Virus record (IMG/VR): IMGVR_UViG_3300042540_000798
Span: 1-24,898 of that record
Strand: one strand, 5' to 3'
DNA: 24,898 bases
Source of the DNA: a virus
The translations under genes were made by a program, and so were the position numbers. The notes beneath the pieces are model-generated. The model saw nothing but the letters and a program-made list of their open reading frames with translations. It made no database searches and was not told where the DNA came from. Below are positions 2,236 to 24,279 of the stretch, piece after piece; within the stretch, counting starts at the first letter, position 1, and every line of letters begins with the position of its first letter.

Positions 2236-4844
2236 CACACACCCGCCAGGAACATGGCGTCGCGCTGCTGGCGGATCACCTCAGAGGCGGTCAGGCGGGC
2301 GTCGCTCGACTCGGTGATGTTGATCGCCCCGATCGTCATCGATGTCTGACGTGACGACGACAGGTCCTGCACCAGGTTGTTCGGCACGATCATCCCCGAC
2401 GTCTCCGGGACGAACAGCTCGGGGCCACGTTCGCCGACCATGAACGTCTCACCGGCCGTGACCGGTCCGCCGATGGCTCGGGGAGTGCCGTCGGGATTCT
2501 TCTGACCGAACCAGCCCAGGATTGTCCCGGGCCTGAACAGTGCGCCGATGACGACCTGCTTGTCTTGGAACTGGTTGTAGACGGCCAGCGCTGCGTCCCA
2601 TTCGCCCCGACGGACCTTGGCGTAGATCTCCGACTGGACCTCGGCGGGCAGGTTGTCGAAGTCGGCCTGGAGGAACTGCAGCTGCGCCTTCGCTTCTTCG
2701 GTGCCGGAGATCAGAATCTGCGTGTTCACCTGCTCGGGCGTGAGGCCGATCGTCTCGATGTACTGGCGGGCAGCTTCCTCGGACATCCCGAGCGTGCCGA
2801 TCAGGTAGTTCCGCAGGAACGCCTCGTAGTTCGACGCCGAGGCCAGCACGTCCTCGTTCGTGGCGCCGGCGGCGATCTGTGCCTGCAGGCTCTTGTTGAC
2901 GGCGTCGCCCCAACCCTGCAGCGCGTCGACCGCCTTGTTCTGCGCTTCGGTGTACCCGCCGAGGGACGCAGCGACCGGGTCGAACCCCTCCGACGGCAGC
3001 GCCGACAGGACGGCTGCGACGGTCTGGCCCTCCTCGTCGGTCGTCGTACGGAACGACTTGAACGCCTCGCCGAGACCCTGCGCTGAGTCGACGATCCCCT
3101 GCAGGTCTCCGGTGACGACCTCGTAGCCGCGTGCGAACCCCTTGGCTGCAGCGCGACCCAGGTCGAACTCGGCGGTGACCTTGGCCAGCTCAAGGGTGAG
3201 CTCACCCTGAATGTCCTTCAGGTCCTCGGCGGTGGCTGTGACTTCAACGAGACCGTCGGCTGTCTTGCCGCTGGCGAGGGCCTGGTCGCGTGCTGCTTGG
3301 GCAGCCTTGCGGGTCTCGACGTCGAGGTTGCGCTGCGATCCCGCAGCGTTTTTCAGGTCACCGATGTAGCCCTCGGTCCTTGCTCTGGCTGCATCGACAG
3401 CAGCCTGCTGCTCCGGGTTGGCGATCTGGATGCCGTCGAGCTGTCGTAGGAACGACTCAAGCGCAGGGATCGACCCGGACTCGGCAACCTTGTCGATTGT
3501 CTCACCGAGCTGGTTCAAGTCGATCTGAGTTGCACTGGCGCCTTCACCGAACTGCGCGATGAGGTCGGCGCTGTTCCCGAACTGATCGTTGAGGTCGCCA
3601 AATCCACTGATGAGTGGACCGCCAGGCAGCAGCGTGAGCGCGGCGTCGCGGATCGCGCCACCGAAGGTCCCGAACCTGTCGGTCGCTCCGTCGATGTCGG
3701 CGGACAACCTGTCAAGCGTGCCGACGTTCGCGTTCACAGCCGTACTGAACGCCTCAAGTTCGTTGCCTTTGGCAACCCCTTGGAGGACGAGCAGGGACTC
3801 GGTGAACGCCTTGGCGTCCTGGCTGCCCTTGTTGAAGGAGTTGCCGATCTCGATCAGCGCCGCCGTCACCGCAACGCCGACGCCCACCGCGCCGATGCCC
3901 GCGACAGCCTTCCCGAAGCCGGTGAGCCGGCCTTCGGTGTCGCGCAGCTTCTCGAAGACGCCCGACAGATTGTCGCGCATCTGCAGGAACTGGCCGGTAG
4001 CGAACGACAGCGCACCGAGACCGCCTGCGCCGATGGCCGAGATCGTCGCCAGCGACCCGGCTGCAGACGACAGCCCTGGGTTCATGTCGTTGAGTGCGCC
4101 GGTCAGCGAGATGCCCGCCCCGACGATGTTGCTCAACGTCGACGCTGCTCCGACGCCGACCTGTTCGCCGATCTCGGACAGCTGGTTCTTCAGGATGGCG
4201 AGCTGACCGTTGAAGGTCTGCGCCTCCTGCTGGGCGAACCCGCCGACGGTCTGCTGCAGAGCGGAGATCGTCCGCTCCATGTCGGTCGAGCCTTCGCCGA
4301 TGGCGTTGACCTGGATGCCCATCCGCTGCAGCGCCGTGGTCGACCCGCCTGCGGCGCGCCCCACCGCTTTCGCTGCGGTCTCGAGGTCGATGCCCATCTT
4401 GCGGGACAGGTCGACGACCAGCGGGGTGAGCGCGAGAACCTGGTCTTCGGTGTAGCCGAACTGGATGAGGAGTGCCTCGACACCCTTGACGGCCTCGTCG
4501 TCGACGACGGTGCTGCCCATCAGCTGGTCGGCGAGGTCGCCGAGCGCCTTGCCGTTGTCGACGAAGCTCTGCGTCGAGTTGGCGATCGAGCTGTCGAGCT
4601 TGGCCTGGGCGACCTCGGACTCGCCGGCCATCGTCGCCAGCTTGCCGAGACCGATCGCCGCGACGGACGCTGCGCCGAACGTGGCGGCGCCCCACGTGGT
4701 CATGCGCCCGGCCATCTTCTCCAGGCGCTCGTCGGTCTTGCCGAGTTCACGTTCGGCGGCGGCCCCCGCCTTGTCCATGCCGGACACGAAGCCCTGCACG
4801 TTGGCGTCGATGAGGAACTCGAGGACCTCACGTGTCGTCGCCAT
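2235..4844 (-). CDS. Tail tape measure protein
   Basis: This is the longest gene in the window (869 aa), immediately after the tail assembly chaperones. Its ATG overlaps the frameshifted chaperone stop by one base. The protein is Ala/Gly/Gln-rich and helical, with hydrophobic segments near residues 50-75, 260-290 and 310-335. It has a typical C-terminal tape measure signature (GGPVTAGETFMVGERGPELF, then VPETSGMIVPNN). Tape measures span the tail lumen and set tail length. At the usual ~0.15 nm per residue, 869 residues would suggest a tail of about 130 nm before any processing. I see no peptidase or lysozyme motif. Confidence 0.95.
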   Translation of the reverse strand: MATTREVLEFLIDANVQGFVSGMDKAGAAAERELGKTDERLEKMAGRMTTWGAATFGAASVAAIGLGKLATMAGESEVAQAKLDSSIANSTQSFVDNGKALGDLADQLMGSTVVDDEAVKGVEALLIQFGYTEDQVLALTPLVVDLSRKMGIDLETAAKAVGRAAGGSTTALQRMGIQVNAIGEGSTDMERTISALQQTVGGFAQQEAQTFNGQLAILKNQLSEIGEQVGVGAASTLSNIVGAGISLTGALNDMNPGLSSAAGSLATISAIGAGGLGALSFATGQFLQMRDNLSGVFEKLRDTEGRLTGFGKAVAGIGAVGVGVAVTAALIEIGNSFNKGSQDAKAFTESLLVLQGVAKGNELEAFSTAVNANVGTLDRLSADIDGATDRFGTFGGAIRDAALTLLPGGPLISGFGDLNDQFGNSADLIAQFGEGASATQIDLNQLGETIDKVAESGSIPALESFLRQLDGIQIANPEQQAAVDAARARTEGYIGDLKNAAGSQRNLDVETRKAAQAARDQALASGKTADGLVEVTATAEDLKDIQGELTLELAKVTAEFDLGRAAAKGFARGYEVVTGDLQGIVDSAQGLGEAFKSFRTTTDEEGQTVAAVLSALPSEGFDPVAASLGGYTEAQNKAVDALQGWGDAVNKSLQAQIAAGATNEDVLASASNYEAFLRNYLIGTLGMSEEAARQYIETIGLTPEQVNTQILISGTEEAKAQLQFLQADFDNLPAEVQSEIYAKVRRGEWDAALAVYNQFQDKQVVIGALFRPGTILGWFGQKNPDGTPRAIGGPVTAGETFMVGERGPELFVPETSGMIVPNNLVQDLSSSRQTSMTIGAINITESSDARLTASEVIRQQRDAMFLAGV

Positions 4845-5721: not shown

Positions 5722-6723
5722 TCAGGACAGCCGGGCGAGGACCCGGGCTGCGTGGTTGGCGAACGTCCGGTCGGCGAGCGCCGCCCGTCCGGCTTCGACG
5801 GCGGCGTCGCGCTCGTCGGGATGAGCGAGCGCCCAGCGAACCTGGTCGACCATCTCGTCGGGCGAGGTGAACGTCGGGAACATCGACAGGACCTCGTCGC
5901 CCTCGGGACGGGGGTCTCGTGACAGCCACACCCCGCACATGACGGCCTCGACCTCACGGGGTGAGATCGCCACACCGTCGGCGTGGCTGTGCGTTCCGTA
6001 GCTGTCGGTCCGGTAGACGTTGAACGTGGTGACCGCCCGCTGGTAGAGCGGCACGGTCTCGGTCGCGTTGTCGGTGCAGCCGTCGACGCCGACGTCGAGG
6101 ACGCAGCGACGCAACGGGTGGGCGTCATCGAGGCCCTTCCACATTCCAGCGAGGTTCAGGTCGACCCCGGACCAGTCGGCCGAGGCGATCCACTCGATCC
6201 GGTTCGGGAACCCGGTGCCGACGAACAGACAGTCGAGGTCCCGTCGCCAGGTGCCTGGCGTGTGGACCTCGGGCCGGTAGGCGTGCGGCAGGTAGAACGT
6301 CGGGGCGAACTGGCTGTACACCTCGGCGCCCTGCGGGTCGTTGACGAGGATCAGATCCGGTTCGATCGCTGCGCACGCCTGCGCCTGGCCTTCGAGCTCG
6401 TAGGGGCACTCGGTGAGGACGAGCACCTTCTTCGCGTCGATGCGGGCGGCCAGCTCGTAGTCGAGGTCGTTGCCGGTGACGATCACGACGACGTCGGGGC
6501 GCAGCAGGTAGCACTCGGCGAGCAGGTTGTACGTGACCGCCTGTCGGGCCTGCGTCGCCGTCATGGTCTCGCCGCGCACTTCGGCGGCGAGGAAGTAGCC
6601 GAGCTGCAGCGACAGGTCGAAGTACGCGGTCTCGACGCCGACCTCGCGCAGTCCGTCCACCCAGCCGGCGGCGACGTCGGCCACCGAGTAGGCCGCCAGC
6701 GGCCCGACGACAATGGCTCTCAC
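5722..6723 (-). CDS. Glycosyltransferase, GT-B / CgeB-like
   Basis: The 333-aa product starts at the GTG at 6723, overlapping the upstream stop by 4 nt (GTGA). The N-terminal half looks like a Rossmann-type acceptor domain (VRAIVVGPLAAYSVADVAAG; RPDVVVIVTGNDLDYELAAR; KKVLVLTECPYE). The C-terminal half has the nucleotide-sugar-domain pattern of GT-B enzymes of the CgeB/Glyco_trans_1_2 type: LFVGTGFPNRIEWI (about 167-180), VTTFNVYRTDSYGTH (231-245) and SPREVEAVMCGVWLSRD (254-270), then a SPDEMVDQVRWAL helix. It lies between the gp10-like gene and the tail tube gene, where accessory enzymes are unusual. The likely activity is transfer of a nucleotide-activated sugar; donor and acceptor cannot be read from sequence. 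Confidence 0.8.
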   Translation of the reverse strand: MRAIVVGPLAAYSVADVAAGWVDGLREVGVETAYFDLSLQLGYFLAAEVRGETMTATQARQAVTYNLLAECYLLRPDVVVIVTGNDLDYELAARIDAKKVLVLTECPYELEGQAQACAAIEPDLILVNDPQGAEVYSQFAPTFYLPHAYRPEVHTPGTWRRDLDCLFVGTGFPNRIEWIASADWSGVDLNLAGMWKGLDDAHPLRRCVLDVGVDGCTDNATETVPLYQRAVTTFNVYRTDSYGTHSHADGVAISPREVEAVMCGVWLSRDPRPEGDEVLSMFPTFTSPDEMVDQVRWALAHPDERDAAVEAGRAALADRTFANHAARVLARLS

Positions 6724-7307
6724 TGGAACCGCTTGATCGTCTCGCGCGCCATCTGCAGGCGGTACCGCTCCCAAGCAGGACGCTTCGCTTCGCGTCCGAT
6801 GCGTGACCACAGGCGCGTCGGCCGGGTGCCGGGGTGGTTGACGCCGTAGCGCATCTGGCCGTTGCCGAGCCGCAACGCCGGCGGGTACACGAGGCGCCGG
6901 CTGCCGCCGACCCGCTTCGTGTTCGCGCCCTTGCCGCGTGTCTGACGCTTCACCCGTGACGGCTTCGGCACGATCCGGTGGGGCTGTGCGCCGAACTCGA
7001 GCATGTACCACGGGCCGGAAACCCGAGCCCAGCGGGGCCACGGTCGGGGCCGGATGATCGCCTTGACGTCCCGCTCGCCTTCGAGCTCGAAGCCGATATT
7101 GAGCTTGAGTGGGATGTACTGGCCGTTGCGGTACCGCCAGTGGGACAGCTGCAGGTCGGAGCCGACCTCCTCGGCGAGCATCCGCAGGCCGACCTGCTTG
7201 AACGTCACGGCGGCGTTCTTGATCGCCCGCTTGTTGTTCTTGCCGGCCATGCCGGTCGTGTCCTCGATCTTGCGGATCAGTTCCGCGGGCGACGAGGAGC
7301 GCCCCAT
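6720..7307 (-). CDS. HK97 gp10-like neck / tail completion protein
   Basis: The 195-aa basic protein starts at an ATG sharing one base with the upstream stop. The central LEFGAQPHRIVPKPS motif (around residues 103-118) is characteristic of the HK97 gp10-like family, which acts at the head-tail neck or tail completion. The stretch after it is unusually rich in Lys/Arg (KRQTRGKGANTKRVGGSRR), followed by YPPALRLGNGQMRYGVNHPG. It sits in the head-tail connector block after the connector and tail-terminator-like genes. Function is inferred from family and position. Confidence 0.8.
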   Translation of the reverse strand: MGRSSSPAELIRKIEDTTGMAGKNNKRAIKNAAVTFKQVGLRMLAEEVGSDLQLSHWRYRNGQYIPLKLNIGFELEGERDVKAIIRPRPWPRWARVSGPWYMLEFGAQPHRIVPKPSRVKRQTRGKGANTKRVGGSRRLVYPPALRLGNGQMRYGVNHPGTRPTRLWSRIGREAKRPAWERYRLQMARETIKRFQ

Positions 7308-7708: not shown

Positions 7709-8340
7709 CAGGCGAGCCCCACGTTGTCAGGGTGGCGGAACGGCTGGAGCAGCTGTCGGGCCCGGGCTGGCATCGACGACGACACCCGCACCACGCCGTA
7801 TTCCGAGAAGCCCGCGACCATGAGCGGGGCGTCCTGCAGCTTCGCGAGTTCAGCGACGAGGATGCGTGTCGCCTGCTTCACCTCGGGCGGGACCGCCGGC
7901 CAGCCCCACGTGCCCGTGATGCGGATCAGACGCTCACGGCCCGACGCCGTCGGCGGCGACGGGAGCAGCGTTGAGGTGACGTTGCGCAGCTGCGTGTACG
8001 GCCACGTCCCCGGGGCCTGGCCCTGCACCGGTGCGAGCAGCTGGTACTGCGAACCGGTCAGGGTCGACTCGTACACGCCGTCGTCGTTGTTGTCGTAGGC
8101 GACGGACGTGACCGACACGAGGTCGTTGAACGCCCCGAACGTCACCGTGTAGCCGTCGGAGTCGACGTCGAACTCTCGGGCGTCGGCGGACGCCTGGTAG
8201 AAGTGCCGCCCGCAGTGCCGGTCGACCATCCGCGACGCAGCAGTCACCACGTCCTCGAGCTCGTAGGTGTCCCGGGATTCGTTGCGGCCGACGTAGCTGA
8301 CCGCCTCCTCGATCGTGAGGTACCCGTTGGAGATGGTCAT
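7708..8340 (-). CDS. Head-tail connector (adaptor) protein
   Basis: The 210-aa product starts at the ATG at 8340 within an ATGA overlap. The N-terminus (YLTIEEAVSYVGRNESRDTY then ELEDVVTAASRMVDRHCGRH) matches the helical DNA-packaging/connector family that binds below the portal (HK97 gp6-like). The middle has a beta insertion (REFDVDSDGYTVTFGAFNDL). The C-terminus has WGWPAVPPEVKQATRILVAE, which is typical of this family. Its place at the head of the connector genes fits. Unusually, three sugar-transfer-type genes and a small gene separate it from the capsid gene. Confidence 0.85.
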   Translation of the reverse strand: MTISNGYLTIEEAVSYVGRNESRDTYELEDVVTAASRMVDRHCGRHFYQASADAREFDVDSDGYTVTFGAFNDLVSVTSVAYDNNDDGVYESTLTGSQYQLLAPVQGQAPGTWPYTQLRNVTSTLLPSPPTASGRERLIRITGTWGWPAVPPEVKQATRILVAELAKLQDAPLMVAGFSEYGVVRVSSSMPARARQLLQPFRHPDNVGLA

Positions 8341-8876
8341 CGTCTGTCGATCTCCTCGGGGCGAATCAGGTAGGCGACCTCGGGGGATGCCACGACGGCA
8401 CGCCCGTGGTCGACGAACCGGCGGAACAACTCGAAGTCCTCACCCTTGAACGTGAACGGGAACCCTGCGACGAACCCGCCGAGTGACCGCAGCACCGAGG
8501 TGCGCACCGTCATCGCGATCGTCGTGTTCGCGAACTCGGTGAGCCACCCGGGTCGGGGGATCGGGCCGAGCTGCGGGTGCCAGGCCGTGTGCAGGATCAG
8601 GTCGGCGTCTGCGTTCGCCTCGAGCACCCGTCGGTAGACGTCGGGGACGAGCTCGTCGTCGTCGTCGAGGAACCCGACGAACGTCGTGTCGACCAGGTCG
8701 AGGCCGGCGTTGCGGGCGAGGCCGGCCGCACCGAACTGGCCGTGGACTTCGGCTGGCACCTTGGGGCAGTCGTCGGCGACACGGATGACACGCTGGGCGC
8801 ATCGACACGCCGACCGGTCGGCGCGCTCCAAGGTGTCCCGGCCGATGGTCGGGATGACGATCGACAGCGACGTCAT
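8337..8876 (-). CDS. Glycosyltransferase family 2-like (GT-A)
   Basis: The 179-aa product starts at the ATG at 8876, sharing one base with the upstream stop. An in-frame start 8 codons earlier would run into the previous gene and is less likely. The sequence shows GT2 hallmarks: MTSLSIVIPTIGRDTL at the N-terminus, GLARNAGLDL (52-61), the metal-binding acidic run FLDDDDELVPD (69-79), and a C-terminal FKGEDFELFRRFV (143-155) that supplies the GED motif. It is compact, lacking the membrane segment of processive GT2 enzymes, so it is likely a soluble transferase using a nucleotide sugar. The substrate is unknown. Confidence 0.85.
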   Translation of the reverse strand: MTSLSIVIPTIGRDTLERADRSACRCAQRVIRVADDCPKVPAEVHGQFGAAGLARNAGLDLVDTTFVGFLDDDDELVPDVYRRVLEANADADLILHTAWHPQLGPIPRPGWLTEFANTTIAMTVRTSVLRSLGGFVAGFPFTFKGEDFELFRRFVDHGRAVVASPEVAYLIRPEEIDRR

Positions 8877-9709
8877 CAGCCGGTCACCGGTGGACGCCAA
8901 AAGAAGATGGCCGGCAGCAGGGCCAGCGGCAGCCAGCGCTCAGGGATCACGCTGCACGCTGCGAGCGCTACCACAGGCGCAGCTGGCGGCTGGTACACCC
9001 TCACCGTGTCGGTCGCCACGAGCAGCGCTGCGTAGCCGACTGCGAGCGCCGCCACGAGCTGCCACGACGGCTTCAGGAGTGCCGCAACGCCCACCGACCA
9101 CGGTGCCACCATGAGCCAGAAGTTTCGCCAGCCACCGGCCTGCGCACGATGCTCGAACGCTGAGCGGACCGGATGGTCGTGCACTCGGCGCAGCAGCGGC
9201 GTCGCGGTGATCGGGTCGATCTGCGGTCGGCGCACGAAGTAGGCGATCAGCGCCAGCGGCAGGACGACCAGCGGCCACGGTGACCACACCCACAGTGCGA
9301 TCCACACCGGAGCCTGTTCCTTGATCCCGACGGCCCAGACAGCGAACACGAGCGCCAGCAGCCAGTTGCCATGCACGAAGCAGGCAGCCGACGCCGCCGA
9401 CATCGCCATCGCCGGCAGGTCGACGCCGACCGGCCACGTCGAGTGCGGCTGCATCACGCCAGGCAGCGCCAGCACGAGCACCGCAGCGGCGACTGACACC
9501 GGCCACGAGGCGTCCATGCCACGCGCCCACAGTGCGACGGACACGCCGAGCACCGGCCACGAGAGCGCCCACACGACCCACCAGGCTGCGAGGTCGCTGC
9601 CACAGACCGACGGCAGAAGCCACCGGACGTTGAACGGGAACGCCACCGGCTTGCCGTCACCGGCCAGCAGGTAGCGGGCGGCGTCGGGACCGGGTCGAAC
9701 GGCGATCAC
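8876..9709 (-). CDS. Polytopic membrane protein, GT-C glycosyltransferase-like
   Basis: The 277-aa product starts at a GTG in a GTGA overlap. I count about eight hydrophobic segments between residues 40 and 271. The N-terminus (RPGPDAARYLLAGDGKPVAF, then NVRWLLP) resembles the first extracytoplasmic loop of lipid-linked-sugar GT-C enzymes, where an Asp acts near a Tyr. Further on there are a KEQA motif after a TM segment (130-133) and TDTVRVYQPPAAPVV (233-247), also GT-C-like. No hydrophobic helix precedes the Asp loop, unlike most GT-C enzymes. Flanking glycosyltransferases suggest it uses or moves a lipid-linked sugar in the host membrane. This function is an inference; a flippase or other transporter is possible. 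Confidence 0.6.
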   Translation of the reverse strand: MIAVRPGPDAARYLLAGDGKPVAFPFNVRWLLPSVCGSDLAAWWVVWALSWPVLGVSVALWARGMDASWPVSVAAAVLVLALPGVMQPHSTWPVGVDLPAMAMSAASAACFVHGNWLLALVFAVWAVGIKEQAPVWIALWVWSPWPLVVLPLALIAYFVRRPQIDPITATPLLRRVHDHPVRSAFEHRAQAGGWRNFWLMVAPWSVGVAALLKPSWQLVAALAVGYAALLVATDTVRVYQPPAAPVVALAACSVIPERWLPLALLPAIFFWRPPVTG

Positions 9710-10461
9710 GCTGCGAGCCCTCGCAGCGCCATCATCGCCTGTTGCAGGTCGTAGGTCTCCTCGTCGAGGAAGACAGCGCCCTTGTCGTGGGTGGTCTTCA
9801 CGCTGGTGTCGACGTGGATCGAGGCGCCAGCGGCCCTCGCCCTGATGCAGAACGACAGGTCCTCGCCGAAGTCAGTCCGACCCGTTGAACCCTTGGCGAT
9901 CGACACCTGGTCGAACGGTCTGCCCGGTGACTCCCGTGTGATCTTCTCCAGCACCGAACGGTGGATCAGGATGCAAGCCGCGCCCGTGGCGTCGACCTCA
10001 ACGAGCTGGTCTCGCGGATAGTCGAAGACTGGCACGAACCCGACTTCCGTTTCGGTCTCGTACATCCGATAGATCGTCGGGCACATCCGGTAGCGGCGGG
10101 CGTACATGGCCCCGATGCCGTCGGACTTCTGCGCGAACGCCAACCCGCCGACGATCGGCCGGTCAATCGCATCGGCCGCATCGAGCAGTCGCTCGACGGT
10201 GTCGGGAGCGAAGCCCATGTCGGCGTCGATCATCAGGAGCCAGCCAGCTTCCTGCTGATTGAGCAGCATCGACGCCAGCGTGTTGCGTCCAGCATTGATG
10301 TGTGCCGCCCCCGTCTCCTTCGGTGCTACCCCGTAGGCGTGAGACACGATGTGTTGTCCGTGGGCTGCGTCGTAGAACATCAGCTCCCGCAGTGAAGCTG
10401 CGAAGCAATGCTGCTCGTGTCCCGGGTGGAGGTAGCCGAGCATCACCTTCTGGTGCTTCAC
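9706..10461 (-). CDS. Glycosyltransferase-like protein (GT-A, DXD)
   Basis: The 251-aa product starts at a GTG at 10461 in a GTGA overlap with the small head gene. Key features are an N-terminal ARNxL-like region (HINAGRNTLASMLLNQQEAG, residues 54-73), a strand ending in WLLMIDADMGFAPD with the DXD motif D79-A-D81, and DRPIVGGLAF (100-109). Further on are VEVDATGAACILIHRSVLEK (154-173) and DFGEDLSFCIRARAAG (197-212), where an acidic pair follows Gly as in GT2-type folds, and H225 near the end. It is probably a soluble nucleotide-sugar transferase. It is the first gene of the three-gene sugar-transfer block, close downstream of capsid. Confidence 0.8.
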   Translation of the reverse strand: MKHQKVMLGYLHPGHEQHCFAASLRELMFYDAAHGQHIVSHAYGVAPKETGAAHINAGRNTLASMLLNQQEAGWLLMIDADMGFAPDTVERLLDAADAIDRPIVGGLAFAQKSDGIGAMYARRYRMCPTIYRMYETETEVGFVPVFDYPRDQLVEVDATGAACILIHRSVLEKITRESPGRPFDQVSIAKGSTGRTDFGEDLSFCIRARAAGASIHVDTSVKTTHDKGAVFLDEETYDLQQAMMALRGLAA

Positions 10462-20995: not shown

Positions 20996-22371
20996 GCCGG
21001 GACCACCTGGAGTCGGCCGGCGTCGTCGTAGTGGGCGACGGCGGTGCGGGCGAGTTCGTCGACGGTGACGGCCTGCTCACGGGTGAGCGTGCCGAGGAGC
21101 TGGCCGACGGTGACGGACAGCTTGTGGGCGTCGTCGCCGAGGACGACAGCGAGCACGGCCCGTGCCCACTCGTCACCGTCGCCACCTTCGGCGAGGGTGA
21201 CCGACGCCGACGATATGAGGAAGCGTCGTTCCGAGTGCAGGCCGCGCCCCATCGAGTAGTCGCAGTGGGCGTCCCGTGACTCCTGCACCCAGCGTCGGAT
21301 GGTCGGCTCCTCGTCGGAGGCGAGGGCACGGTCGCGGAGTTCGTGGACGAGTTCGACGGCCACGAGGTCGCCCTCGGACGGGTGCAGCTTCAGCATCGGT
21401 GCAGGTCGGGCGTTCGCCCGTGCCGCTGCCTCGGTCTCCGGGGGCAGGTCGGGCATCGGCACCGGTTCGAGGGTGCGCTTCGGGACTGCAGTCTCGGCAG
21501 CCTCAGCGCTCCCGTTTCCGCGCTTCGGCTTCCCGGCAGCTTTCCGTCGGGCCTTCGGCCGTTCGACGGGCTCTAGGTCGCGCACCAGGCCGTCGTTCTT
21601 CCTCCAGCGACGCACCCACAGGGCGTGTTCGAGGGCTTCAGCGCCGGCGGCGATGTCGAGCCAATGGAGGGTGCACGGCCCGCCGGCCGCGGGCAGGTGG
21701 ACGATGATCGCCCGCTCCCGGTCGACGTCGACAGGCTCGCTGTGGGTGTCGGTGGCGACGTCGTAGTAGCTGGTCGCCCCGGCGTAGATGGCGAGCTGGA
21801 CGGCGAAGCTGCGCCCCGACCAGGCGATTGACGCCCCGGTCTTCAGGTCGGCGATGTAGCTGCGTCCGTCGTGCTCGACGATCATGTCGAACGTCCCGGC
21901 GGCGTGGATCGGTTCGTTCACGCAGAACTGCTCGACGTGGTCCGGGTTGACGGTCAGGCCGTGGCGTTCGAGGGCGGCGGTGTACTCGGCGATCGCGTCG
22001 GCGAACATCGCCGGGGCGTCGTCGCCGCGGTTGACCTGTTCGACGGCAGCGTGGATCGCCGTCCCCATGTTCGCCGCGGCGCTGCTGCCGGCGGCGTCCC
22101 GTGCGTCGGAGCAGATGCCGTTCAGGGCGCCCTTGTCGTCGGCGCTCGTGGTGGCAATCCGGGCGACGAGGTCGGGTCGGGCGGCGAGGCCGAGGGCCAC
22201 CTGGCGCTGCATCCACAGCTCCAGGTTGTGCCGGTCGTCGAGGGTGTCGGCGATCGTCGTGGGCCGGGTGTAGGCGACGGGCTTGTCGCCACCTTTCGGC
22301 AGGATCAGCGGTCGCCCGTAACGGTCGCGACGGGGCTCGACGCGGGTCAGGTCTTCGAGGTCGTTGCTCAC
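20992..22371 (-). CDS. RecB/Cas4-type PD-(D/E)XK exonuclease with C-terminal extension
   Basis: The chosen start is the GTG at 22371 (GTGA overlap), giving 459 aa. The nuclease core has GTAIHAAVEQ with H107, AAGTFDMIVEHDGRSYIADL then KTG with D162 and the D175-L-K177 pair, and SFAVQLAIYAGA with Q192 and Y196. This is the full H / D / DxK / QxxxY set of RecB-like nucleases. A basic linker (KARRKAAGKPKRG, 273-285) joins it to about 150 further residues including TIRRWVQESRDAHCDYSMGR and VTVGQLLGTLTREQAVTVDE. It probably resects DNA ends for recombination or replication, acting with RusA and the SSB-like protein. Related nucleases are common in actinophages. Confidence 0.88.
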   Translation of the reverse strand: MSNDLEDLTRVEPRRDRYGRPLILPKGGDKPVAYTRPTTIADTLDDRHNLELWMQRQVALGLAARPDLVARIATTSADDKGALNGICSDARDAAGSSAAANMGTAIHAAVEQVNRGDDAPAMFADAIAEYTAALERHGLTVNPDHVEQFCVNEPIHAAGTFDMIVEHDGRSYIADLKTGASIAWSGRSFAVQLAIYAGATSYYDVATDTHSEPVDVDRERAIIVHLPAAGGPCTLHWLDIAAGAEALEHALWVRRWRKNDGLVRDLEPVERPKARRKAAGKPKRGNGSAEAAETAVPKRTLEPVPMPDLPPETEAAARANARPAPMLKLHPSEGDLVAVELVHELRDRALASDEEPTIRRWVQESRDAHCDYSMGRGLHSERRFLISSASVTLAEGGDGDEWARAVLAVVLGDDAHKLSVTVGQLLGTLTREQAVTVDELARTAVAHYDDAGRLQVVPA

Positions 22372-22832
22372 TTCGCTCCTGTCGGTCGGTAGAACACGGT
22401 GCGCCCTTCGTTGCGGCACTCCAGGCGTCCGGCGAGGAGGTGCTCCCGGAGTCGCCTGCGGGCCATCTGCTGGGTCCAGCCGGTCGTCTCGGCGAGCTGC
22501 GGTGCGGACCACCAGCCGCCGACGTCGACCATGAGGTCGATCACGGAGAACTTCCCGGCCTCGGGCATCCGACGCCGGCCACCCCACACGCCGTGAATCT
22601 CGGGGCGCTCGTCGGCGGCTTCGGCGCACGGGGTTCGGACCGGGCAGCCGTTGCAGACGGCGATCGCCTCGGCCCACCGCTGCGACCGGTTCCTCGACTT
22701 CGGGAACATCACGTCGGTCCGGCCGCGGCACGCAGCCTCGGCGTGCCAGTCGGGACGCTGCAGGAGGTGCGTGATCGCCTCGATGCGATCGGAGGGTTCG
22801 TTGCCGTGGAACGGCTCGGCGTGGACGATCAC
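22368..22832 (-). CDS. WhiB-family regulator with C-terminal winged-helix-like domain
   Basis: The chosen start is the GTG at 22832 (GTGA overlap), giving 154 aa. The Fe-S ligands are C35, C60, C63 and C69 in EAACRGRTD...AVCNGCPVRTPCAEAA, followed by the G-rich turn GVWGG (81-85), the WhiB signature. The last 60 residues (SVIDLMVDVGGWWSAPQLAE, QMARRRLREHLLAGRLECRN, EGRTVFYRP) look like a winged helix, which is not part of canonical WhiB proteins. WhiB proteins bind the housekeeping sigma factor and modulate transcription. This one may redirect host polymerase or repress host WhiB targets. Confidence 0.9.
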   Translation of the reverse strand: MIVHAEPFHGNEPSDRIEAITHLLQRPDWHAEAACRGRTDVMFPKSRNRSQRWAEAIAVCNGCPVRTPCAEAADERPEIHGVWGGRRRMPEAGKFSVIDLMVDVGGWWSAPQLAETTGWTQQMARRRLREHLLAGRLECRNEGRTVFYRPTGAK

Positions 22833-23839
22833 GACGCCGCCCGCTGGTGGCTCAGCATCTTCTGCCGGTGGTGCCGGGCGTGGCGGCACTCCTCGCTGCA
22901 CACCTTCTGCTGGCCCTGGGCGACGAACGCGTTGCCGCACTCGGGGCACTCGACGGTCGGGGCGTTCTGGCGCAGGTGGGCGTGGATCGACACGCCCCCC
23001 CACATGCCGATCCGCAGACGCTTCGACTCGGCGTAGGCGAGGCACTCGGCCTGGACCGGACACGCCGTGCAGATGCGCCGGGCCTTCGCCTGCGTCGGGA
23101 CGTCGCCGCGCGCCGTGAACCACATCCACGTCGGCCGGTCCTGGCCGCGGCACGCAGCCTGCGCACGCCACGGCTGCTGTCGCTCCAGGACGACGTCGGC
23201 CAGCTCGTTGAACAGCCGGTCGATCTCGTCGGACTCGGCGAACGTGCGGCGGGGCTTCTCGGCTGCCGGCGGGGCGATCGTCTGATCGCCGTGGCGTGAG
23301 CGTCGGACCGTCACCAGCGTCCCGGCGTCCAGCTCGGCCGCCATGCCGGCGATGATCCGGTGGGTGCGTGCGGTGACGTGCTTGCGGTCGGGTCGAATCT
23401 GCAGCGTCGGGACACCGAGACGCTCAGCGATGCGGGCACGCGGGACACCGGCGGTGGTGAGCTTGGCGATGGCGGCGTGGGTGCTGGCAGCGTCGATCCT
23501 CGTCCCGTCGGCGAGGTGGTCGACACTCCAGCTCACCGCCAAGATCGCCTCGGCCGTCGACGGCCTGATGCGCTTGGTCGGTGGCCGGCCGGGCTTGCCG
23601 TAGATGAGGGCCGTCATCGTCGACGTCGACAGCCCGGCCAGCTGGCCGACACGCTTGAACCCGAGGCCCTGCGCCATGAGTTCGAGGACGTGACGTCGGG
23701 CAGGCTCAGCGGAGACGAGGCGTGGGGTGAGGGCGTTCCGACGCTCCAGCTCGTACAGCCTCGACGCGTCCCGGCAGTCGTCGCAGCGACAGCCGTCGAT
23801 CGTGTACTTCGCTCGGGTGCCGTGCTGTCGGTGGCTCAC
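22829..23839 (-). CDS. Chimeric WhiB protein: N-terminal Cys/HTH modules and C-terminal zinc finger
   Basis: The 336-aa product starts at a GTG in a GTGA overlap with rusA. Residues 5-35 carry HGTRAKYTIDGCRCDDCRDA, a short Cys motif seen in actinophage proteins. Residues 46-80 form a probable helix-turn-helix (HVLELMAQGLGFKRVGQLAG, LSTSTMTALIYGKPG), and 120-145 may form another (AKLTTAGVPRARIAERLGVP). The WhiB domain spans about 222-290 with C230, C257, C260, C266 and GMWGG (278-282). A CxxC...CxxxC finger follows (C298, C301, C314, C318). WhiB proteins are normally about 80-130 aa, so this fusion could read DNA directly while binding sigma factor. Confidence 0.88.
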   Translation of the reverse strand: MSHRQHGTRAKYTIDGCRCDDCRDASRLYELERRNALTPRLVSAEPARRHVLELMAQGLGFKRVGQLAGLSTSTMTALIYGKPGRPPTKRIRPSTAEAILAVSWSVDHLADGTRIDAASTHAAIAKLTTAGVPRARIAERLGVPTLQIRPDRKHVTARTHRIIAGMAAELDAGTLVTVRRSRHGDQTIAPPAAEKPRRTFAESDEIDRLFNELADVVLERQQPWRAQAACRGQDRPTWMWFTARGDVPTQAKARRICTACPVQAECLAYAESKRLRIGMWGGVSIHAHLRQNAPTVECPECGNAFVAQGQQKVCSEECRHARHHRQKMLSHQRAAS

Positions 23840-24279
23840 CGGTCACCCCCGAGCGCGTCGAGGGGCCAGACTGCGATGTCGGCCCCGGCGGCGTCGGTCG
23901 TCTCGACCTTCGACGCCATCACCATCCCGATCCGGGCGTCGTCGCGTATCAGACCCGAGACGGTGAGGGCGTCGCCGACGGAGCGGATGAGCTTGTCGAG
24001 GTCCGGGGCTGTCTGCTTCCAGGCGCGACCGATGCGGAGCAGACGCTTCGGCCTGGACGCCGGCATCGGGAACGAGAACGCCACCGACAGGCACAGCGGC
24101 CCGTCGAGGGGCGTGTCGGTGCGCCGGGCGGCGACGGCCGCTGCTTCGGTGGCGACGGCGTGACGCCACTCCCGGTGCCCGTTCGCGGCCTCGATCATGC
24201 GCCCATTGCCGACGTGACGCTTCGAGCCCTGCTGGACCGGCGTGCCGACGACGCTGAACCTGACGACAGGGTTGCTCAC
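23836..24279 (-). CDS. rusA: RusA-family Holliday-junction resolvase
   Basis: The 147-aa product starts at a GTG in a GTGA overlap. The N-terminus has the family strand and GTPVQQGSKRHV (residues 12-23), and the active-site block is APDLDKLIRSVGDALTVSGL then IRDDARI. This aligns with RusA catalytic Asp residues (D93, D95 and D113/D114) and the conserved Lys (K96). RusA enzymes cut four-way junctions symmetrically. In phages they resolve recombination or replication intermediates before packaging. It belongs with the RecB-like nuclease and probable SSB in this module. Confidence 0.9.
   Translation of the reverse strand: MSNPVVRFSVVGTPVQQGSKRHVGNGRMIEAANGHREWRHAVATEAAAVAARRTDTPLDGPLCLSVAFSFPMPASRPKRLLRIGRAWKQTAPDLDKLIRSVGDALTVSGLIRDDARIGMVMASKVETTDAAGADIAVWPLDALGGDR

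Follow-up and report, generated by a model that had tools for sequence, protein, structure and literature searches.

One phage gene joins a tandem helix-turn-helix (HTH) module to a complete WhiB protein in a single chain. It is located at 22829..23839 on the minus strand of the window, by which we mean the whole stretch of DNA analysed here, a 24.9-kb virus contig. The source is a virus of an actinobacterium. The gene has a GTG start and a TGA stop and encodes 336 amino acids, arranged as two HTH repeats, a WhiB domain and a Cys finger. Judged from sequence comparison, the sole new thing about it is one junction, in which the HTH part of family phrog_1590 is followed by a linker and then by a whole phrog_1333 protein. 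We give roughly an even chance to the reading that the product is a transcription regulator encoded in the early operon, which would engage host sigma-A through WhiB and choose phage promoters through the HTH repeats.

The fusion is encoded by one uninterrupted gene

A first-pass annotation had placed a 336-aa ORF at exactly these coordinates and left the strand unstated. On the plus strand, the frame that it used contains an internal stop and makes no coding sense. On the minus strand, the gene overlaps at its start with the stop of a RusA gene and at its end, in the sequence GTGA, with the GTG of the following gene; overlaps at both ends are arranged as in a translationally coupled operon. 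GC content at third codon positions is 0.86-1.0 in all modules, as expected for coding sequence in a window of 69% GC.

The same uninterrupted ORF occurs in two further IMG/VR metagenomic phage contigs, L002 and L003, with 98% and 95% amino acid identity, respectively. The 336-codon frame is kept in all three contigs across all modules and the junction, with neither indel nor internal stop, and dN/dS between the window and L003 is ~0.4. Since three independent contigs keep the same frame, the gene does not result from a frame error, which the first-pass annotation had named as a possible refutation. That two genes were merged by sequencing or assembly error, or that the ORF arose by chance, is highly improbable: the two halves are indeed encoded separately in many relatives and the start codon is altered in one contig, but the frame runs through the junction at 2-5% divergence and both halves match known families.

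The altered start codon belongs to L002, where a single T>G change (positions 3998-4000) turns GTG into GGG and also destroys the TGA stop of RusA. The L002 copy may use another start (the first ATG is codon 55), or the change may be a sequencing error. As it stands, RusA would run on out of frame into the fusion gene in this contig. A 1259-base tblastn span in L002 and L003 was considered as an insertion and rejected; its tail end matches the second WhiB gene described below. A DNA-level search of phages gave zero matches.

The N-terminal half derives from a tandem HTH family

The N-terminal half matches phrog_1590 (E = 1.3e-17, residues 9-166, profile positions 12-176 of 281), a duplicated XRE-like HTH that is normally encoded by its own gene. 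The match is confined to the N-terminal two thirds of the family, consisting of a Cys motif and two HTH repeats. The C-terminal third (GW..PLAWDD..IDDP) is absent, and in its place stand the linker (residues 172-222, 23174..23326, minus) and WhiB. According to these profiles, the fusion carries the N-terminal part of phrog_1590, not a whole member. The linker has zero amino acid differences among the window, L002 and L003.

The first module is the putative metal-binding motif HGTRAKYTIDGCRCDDC (H6, C17, C19, C22; residues 6-22, 23774..23824, minus). It had been pointed out at first pass as HGTRAKY...GCRCDDC and is kept in 26 aligned relatives, in which H6, T8, Y12, C19 and C22 never vary and conservation of G7, C17 and R18 is at least 90% (alignment A6). 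From its residues we infer that the motif binds metal. It is followed in the AlphaFold model by a long helix (residues 20-37).

The number of HTH segments, previously given as one or two, is two in the AlphaFold model of residues 1-200 (pLDDT 86.6). Repeat 1, which resembles XRE proteins and 434 repressor, spans residues 41-106 (23522..23719, minus) and repeat 2 spans residues 113-171 (23327..23503, minus). Residues 1-200 were folded alone; the full-length mixed alignment (A5) was left out because it misplaced the second repeat, and alignment A1 proved too diverse to be used in scans of the collection. By hhalign, the two repeats are homologous to each other with a probability of 96%; their score of 50.5 compares with a maximum of 11.4 among 30 column shuffles. 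Repeat 1 aligns with SinR, Aca1, C.Esp1396I and 434 repressor (Z 5-5.9 over 57-65 residues, rmsd 2.3-3.7 Å), a likeness that holds at class level only, since the XRE-type HTH is a small and common fold. Pfam HTH_31 scores 15.0 bits, under its cut-off of 27; the second repeat is degenerate; and Foldseek gave zero significant whole-domain matches for the N-terminal half.

Amino acid changes between the window and L003 cluster in the predicted DNA-contact region of repeat 2 (residues 143-160, 23360..23413, minus), which takes up 8 of the 17 differences (scan P = 1.5e-4). These residues sit past the second helix of the repeat, where the recognition helix is expected. Synonymous changes between the same two sequences are not significantly clustered (four in the densest 18-codon stretch, P = 0.29), and three synonymous changes also fall inside the 143-160 stretch. 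A short recombination tract explains the cluster equally well as selection for a new binding site.

The C-terminal half is a complete phage WhiB protein

The WhiB domain (residues 223-290, 22970..23173, minus) is intact, in agreement with the first-pass annotation. PF02467 matches residues 224-284 (E = 3.8e-14, 53.4 bits against a cut-off of 23.6), and all four cluster cysteines, C230, C257, C260 and C266, are present with the spacing CX26CX2CX5C. The G(V/I)WGG turn reads GMWGG in the window and GIWGG in L003. W224, W240, F241 and W280 align to W3, F17, F18 and W60 of WhiB1, with a two-residue insertion ahead of W240. The closest PDB match of the fusion is a WhiB chain (8dy7_H, E = 4e-9). The domain is followed by a CxxC-x12-CxxxC finger (residues 298-318, 22886..22948, minus), also recognised at first pass and found likewise in phage WhiB proteins.

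Domain and finger together match phrog_1333 (E = 9.7e-20, residues 219-332, profile positions 15-138 of 166), the family of WhiB with a C-terminal Cys finger that is found in hundreds of actinophages; at least 80% of the C-terminal half is matched by 271 phage records. The view that typical WhiB proteins are single small domains thus fails for phages, in which WhiB plus Cys finger is a standing family. Its members Pacc40 gp51, Nebkiss gp72 and prophiGD91-2 gp46 from Mycobacterium phages have WhiB with a CxxC..CxxxC tail and share 30-34% identity with the fusion over the C-terminal half, but lack the N-terminal HTH half. Among the fetched loci, other phage WhiB proteins have tails with HTH, winged helix, Cys fingers or HGT/CxCxxC modules. 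One mycobacteriophage WhiB (L064, 3674-4315) has three CxxC..CxxxC fingers in its tail.

Two WhiB genes follow each other in a phage operon

The gene whose start overlaps the fusion stop (22368..22832, minus) encodes a second WhiB protein (PF02467, E = 8e-14), with full-length relatives only in L002 and L003. Its C-terminal tail (22383..22547, minus) is modelled as an ArsR-family-like winged helix (pLDDT 75-87), to which ArsR-family repressors match at 1.1-1.9 Å over ~54 residues; Foldseek E-values are weak (~5e-3), owing to the poor quality of the remainder of the model. That two WhiB proteins in a row carry DNA-binding folds of different kinds makes it more likely that these folds serve as DNA readers.

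Directly upstream in the same operon is a RusA-like resolvase gene (23836..24279, minus; PF05866, E = 4.6e-11). Genes for a PD-(D/E)XK nuclease, a DUF3987 protein, HNH, terminase and capsid are found downstream of the fusion, and intergenic gaps are nearly absent. Glycosyltransferase-like genes were recognised by eye among the head and tail genes (~5722-7041, 8337-8900 and 9706-10461, minus).

The operon shared with RusA and the PD-(D/E)XK nuclease would also suit a DNA-processing accessory rather than a transcription factor, in which Cys fingers and HTH would bring a structural WhiB fold to DNA for these two enzymes, and both the HGT/CxCxxC motif and Cys fingers occur in HNH endonucleases as well. 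We nevertheless hold this to be quite improbable, given that the WhiB cluster and sigma-interface residues are all kept and no catalytic residues were recognised in the fusion.

In L003, the operon extends rightwards, starting from an intergenic region; adjoining that region on the other strand, ~2 kb upstream of the fusion gene, are what looks by eye like an XRE repressor gene and a tyrosine integrase gene; an integrase lies upstream in both sister contigs. This neighbourhood suggests that the phage is probably temperate and that the fusion gene is on its early, lytic side. It would also fit a repressor, or a regulator like Cro, that acts on early or lysogeny genes of the phage itself, with the XRE repeats at the switch region and WhiB modulating RNA polymerase. 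Such a role would agree with the XRE-like fold, which 434 Cro and C.Esp1396I also have, and with the capability of both WhiB and WhiA for repression (PMC4850268). However, a separate XRE repressor-like gene already adjoins the integrase, and we regard this role as improbable.

Proposed mode of action

Were the fusion a regulator of phage promoters, as we propose, its WhiB domain with a [4Fe-4S] cluster would dock on region 4 of the host principal sigma factor, like WhiB1, WhiB3 and WhiB7. Wbl proteins bind sigma-A region 4 via aromatic residues around the cluster, and alanine in WhiB3 at the counterparts of WhiB1 F17, F18 or W60 abolishes this binding (PMC10245118). The duplicated XRE-like HTH, aided by the two Cys motifs, would recognise a particular phage operator adjoining the -35 element. 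Host RNA polymerase would thereby be brought to a subset of phage promoters, among which delayed-early or late ones are the likeliest. The second WhiB, which is translationally coupled and has a winged helix, would probably either act together with the fusion or be a regulator in its own right, with a different target site. For the fusion itself we infer the cluster, sigma binding, DNA binding, the targets and activation over repression.

The simplest reading, drawn by analogy, is that of a single-chain counterpart of WhiA plus WhiB. The Streptomyces WhiB and the DNA-binding WhiA are mutually dependent for in vivo DNA binding (PMC4850268); there the sigma-docking Wbl protein and the DNA reader act in trans, whereas WhiB7 has its reader, an AT-hook, in cis. 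The fusion would act like either of them, but with a built-in and exchangeable reader, the duplicated XRE-like HTH, in cis. The analogy is one of mechanism, with no homology of the DNA reader. Like the fusion, WblP of the Streptomyces coelicolor plasmid SCP1 combines a Wbl domain with a further transcription domain in one protein (PMC6282962).

The analogy with WhiB7 speaks for activation, which is nonetheless no foregone conclusion, since TM4 WhiB, the only phage WhiB studied during infection, inhibits host whiB2, according to work cited in PMC8612146. The main rival is therefore inhibition of host genes, in which the fusion would act on sigma-A or on host wbl promoters and shut down functions such as division or superinfection. 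The same citation credits TM4 WhiB with lowering host whiB2 expression and conferring superinfection resistance, overexpression of several phage WhiB and HTH proteins is toxic (PMC13148394), and the early-operon position of the gene is compatible with such a role. On the other hand, a duplicated HTH with a changing contact region suits co-evolving phage operators better than conserved host sites, and the gene sits among replication genes. Host-directed inhibition is unlikely in our opinion, though it retains an appreciable chance.

The two families are recurrently associated

WhiB and the tandem HTH of phrog_1590 are also joined in one protein in Gordonia phage GAL1 (Orf53, YP_009324445.1, 412 aa), which is encoded in the early region of a phage with an integrase. 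In contrast to our fusion, the order is reversed (WhiB first, HTH second), phrog_1590 is full, including its C-terminal third (profile positions 6-280 of 281), and the CxxC-x12-CxxxC finger is missing directly after WhiB. Elsewhere the two families are separate polypeptides. Their genes are adjacent and on the same strand, WhiB preceding HTH, in Gordonia phages BritBrat (gp64/65) and ODay (gp76/77), and Thermobifida phage P1312 (083/084) has the same-strand order RusA, WhiB, HTH. The order of the fusion, HTH and then WhiB, is found on the same strand in Mycobacterium phage Dusk (89/90) and also in a prophage-like locus (L163) ~5 kb from an integrase.

When phrog_1590 proteins were clustered at 60% identity, 2 of the 38 clusters were fused to WhiB and 5 adjacent to it. 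The rough chance estimate is far below this frequency even after allowing five-fold for the tendency of early genes to lie together (P ~8e-5, in a sample chosen partly by WhiB searches). Because the two families are recurrently fused and adjacent, it is plausible that the fusion couples sigma binding to sequence-specific DNA recognition, as had been suggested at first pass. The remaining 31 clusters have no neighbouring WhiB gene, so the HTH module also works alone. Stand-alone genes of this kind, in which the C-terminal third is conserved, occur in phages of Arthrobacter, Brevibacterium, Gordonia and Mycobacterium.

The exact order of modules in the fusion was found in no isolated phage or host genome among those searched, which comprised one phage collection and 396 sampled genomes besides pattern scans of IMG/VR and a single scan of GTDB; this absence is provisional. 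In the 396 genomes, which belong to one actinobacterial phylum, the HTH family was detected in seven and fused to WhiB in none. The first-pass annotation knew of no described protein with this order, which holds for the exact order within the searched data, the reverse order being that of GAL1. It had also named as a refutation that the architecture be common in databases; each half is common, but the junction is not. We found neither a paper describing such a WhiB-HTH fusion nor one that demonstrates sigma binding by a phage WhiB carrying modules of this kind. The main text of a survey of actinophage WhiB proteins (PMC8612146) contains neither helix-turn-helix nor zinc.

WhiB is joined to a different HTH family in Mycobacterium phages Nimbo (gp53) and Deb65 (gp54). 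These 213-aa proteins resemble the fusion in having two HTH segments, but the segments are of the HTH_38/HTH_23 family and the order is WhiB-HTH. WhiB and the tandem HTH, one protein in Nimbo (L176, 339-980), are two overlapping genes in Dorothy (gp57/58; L177, 332-972). By comparison of these loci, Dorothy on one side and Nimbo and Deb65 on the other appear as a natural recent fusion pair.

It is tempting to generalise, though with more doubt than confidence, that actinophages repeatedly build single-chain activators from a sigma-docking WhiB and interchangeable readers (tandem XRE HTH, winged helix, sigma-r4-like HTH, Cys fingers). The fusion and its neighbour would then be two of these, encoded in the same operon, and each would direct the host polymerase to its own group of phage promoters. 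Few members of the Wbl family have an evident DNA reader that would account for their choice of promoters. Phage fusions of WhiB with defined DNA-binding folds, which occur naturally in both orders, are ready-made constructs to ask whether WhiB is a general sigma-A adaptor. They could supply modular activators for actinobacterial genetics, and they suggest a reason for the many whiB genes kept by actinophages.

A clade of phage contigs (L113-L125) with apparent coverage of residues 4-301 was considered as further fusions and rejected, as these contigs contain a WhiB gene and, adjacent on the same strand, a separate HTH gene in another frame. In these loci (~2470-3490), WhiB has an HGT..CxC..C tail and the separate HTH gene that comes directly after it starts with the same module. 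A member of the HTH family from a bacterial genome (L164, 1000-2151) has an extra HGT/CxCxxC module ahead of the main one.
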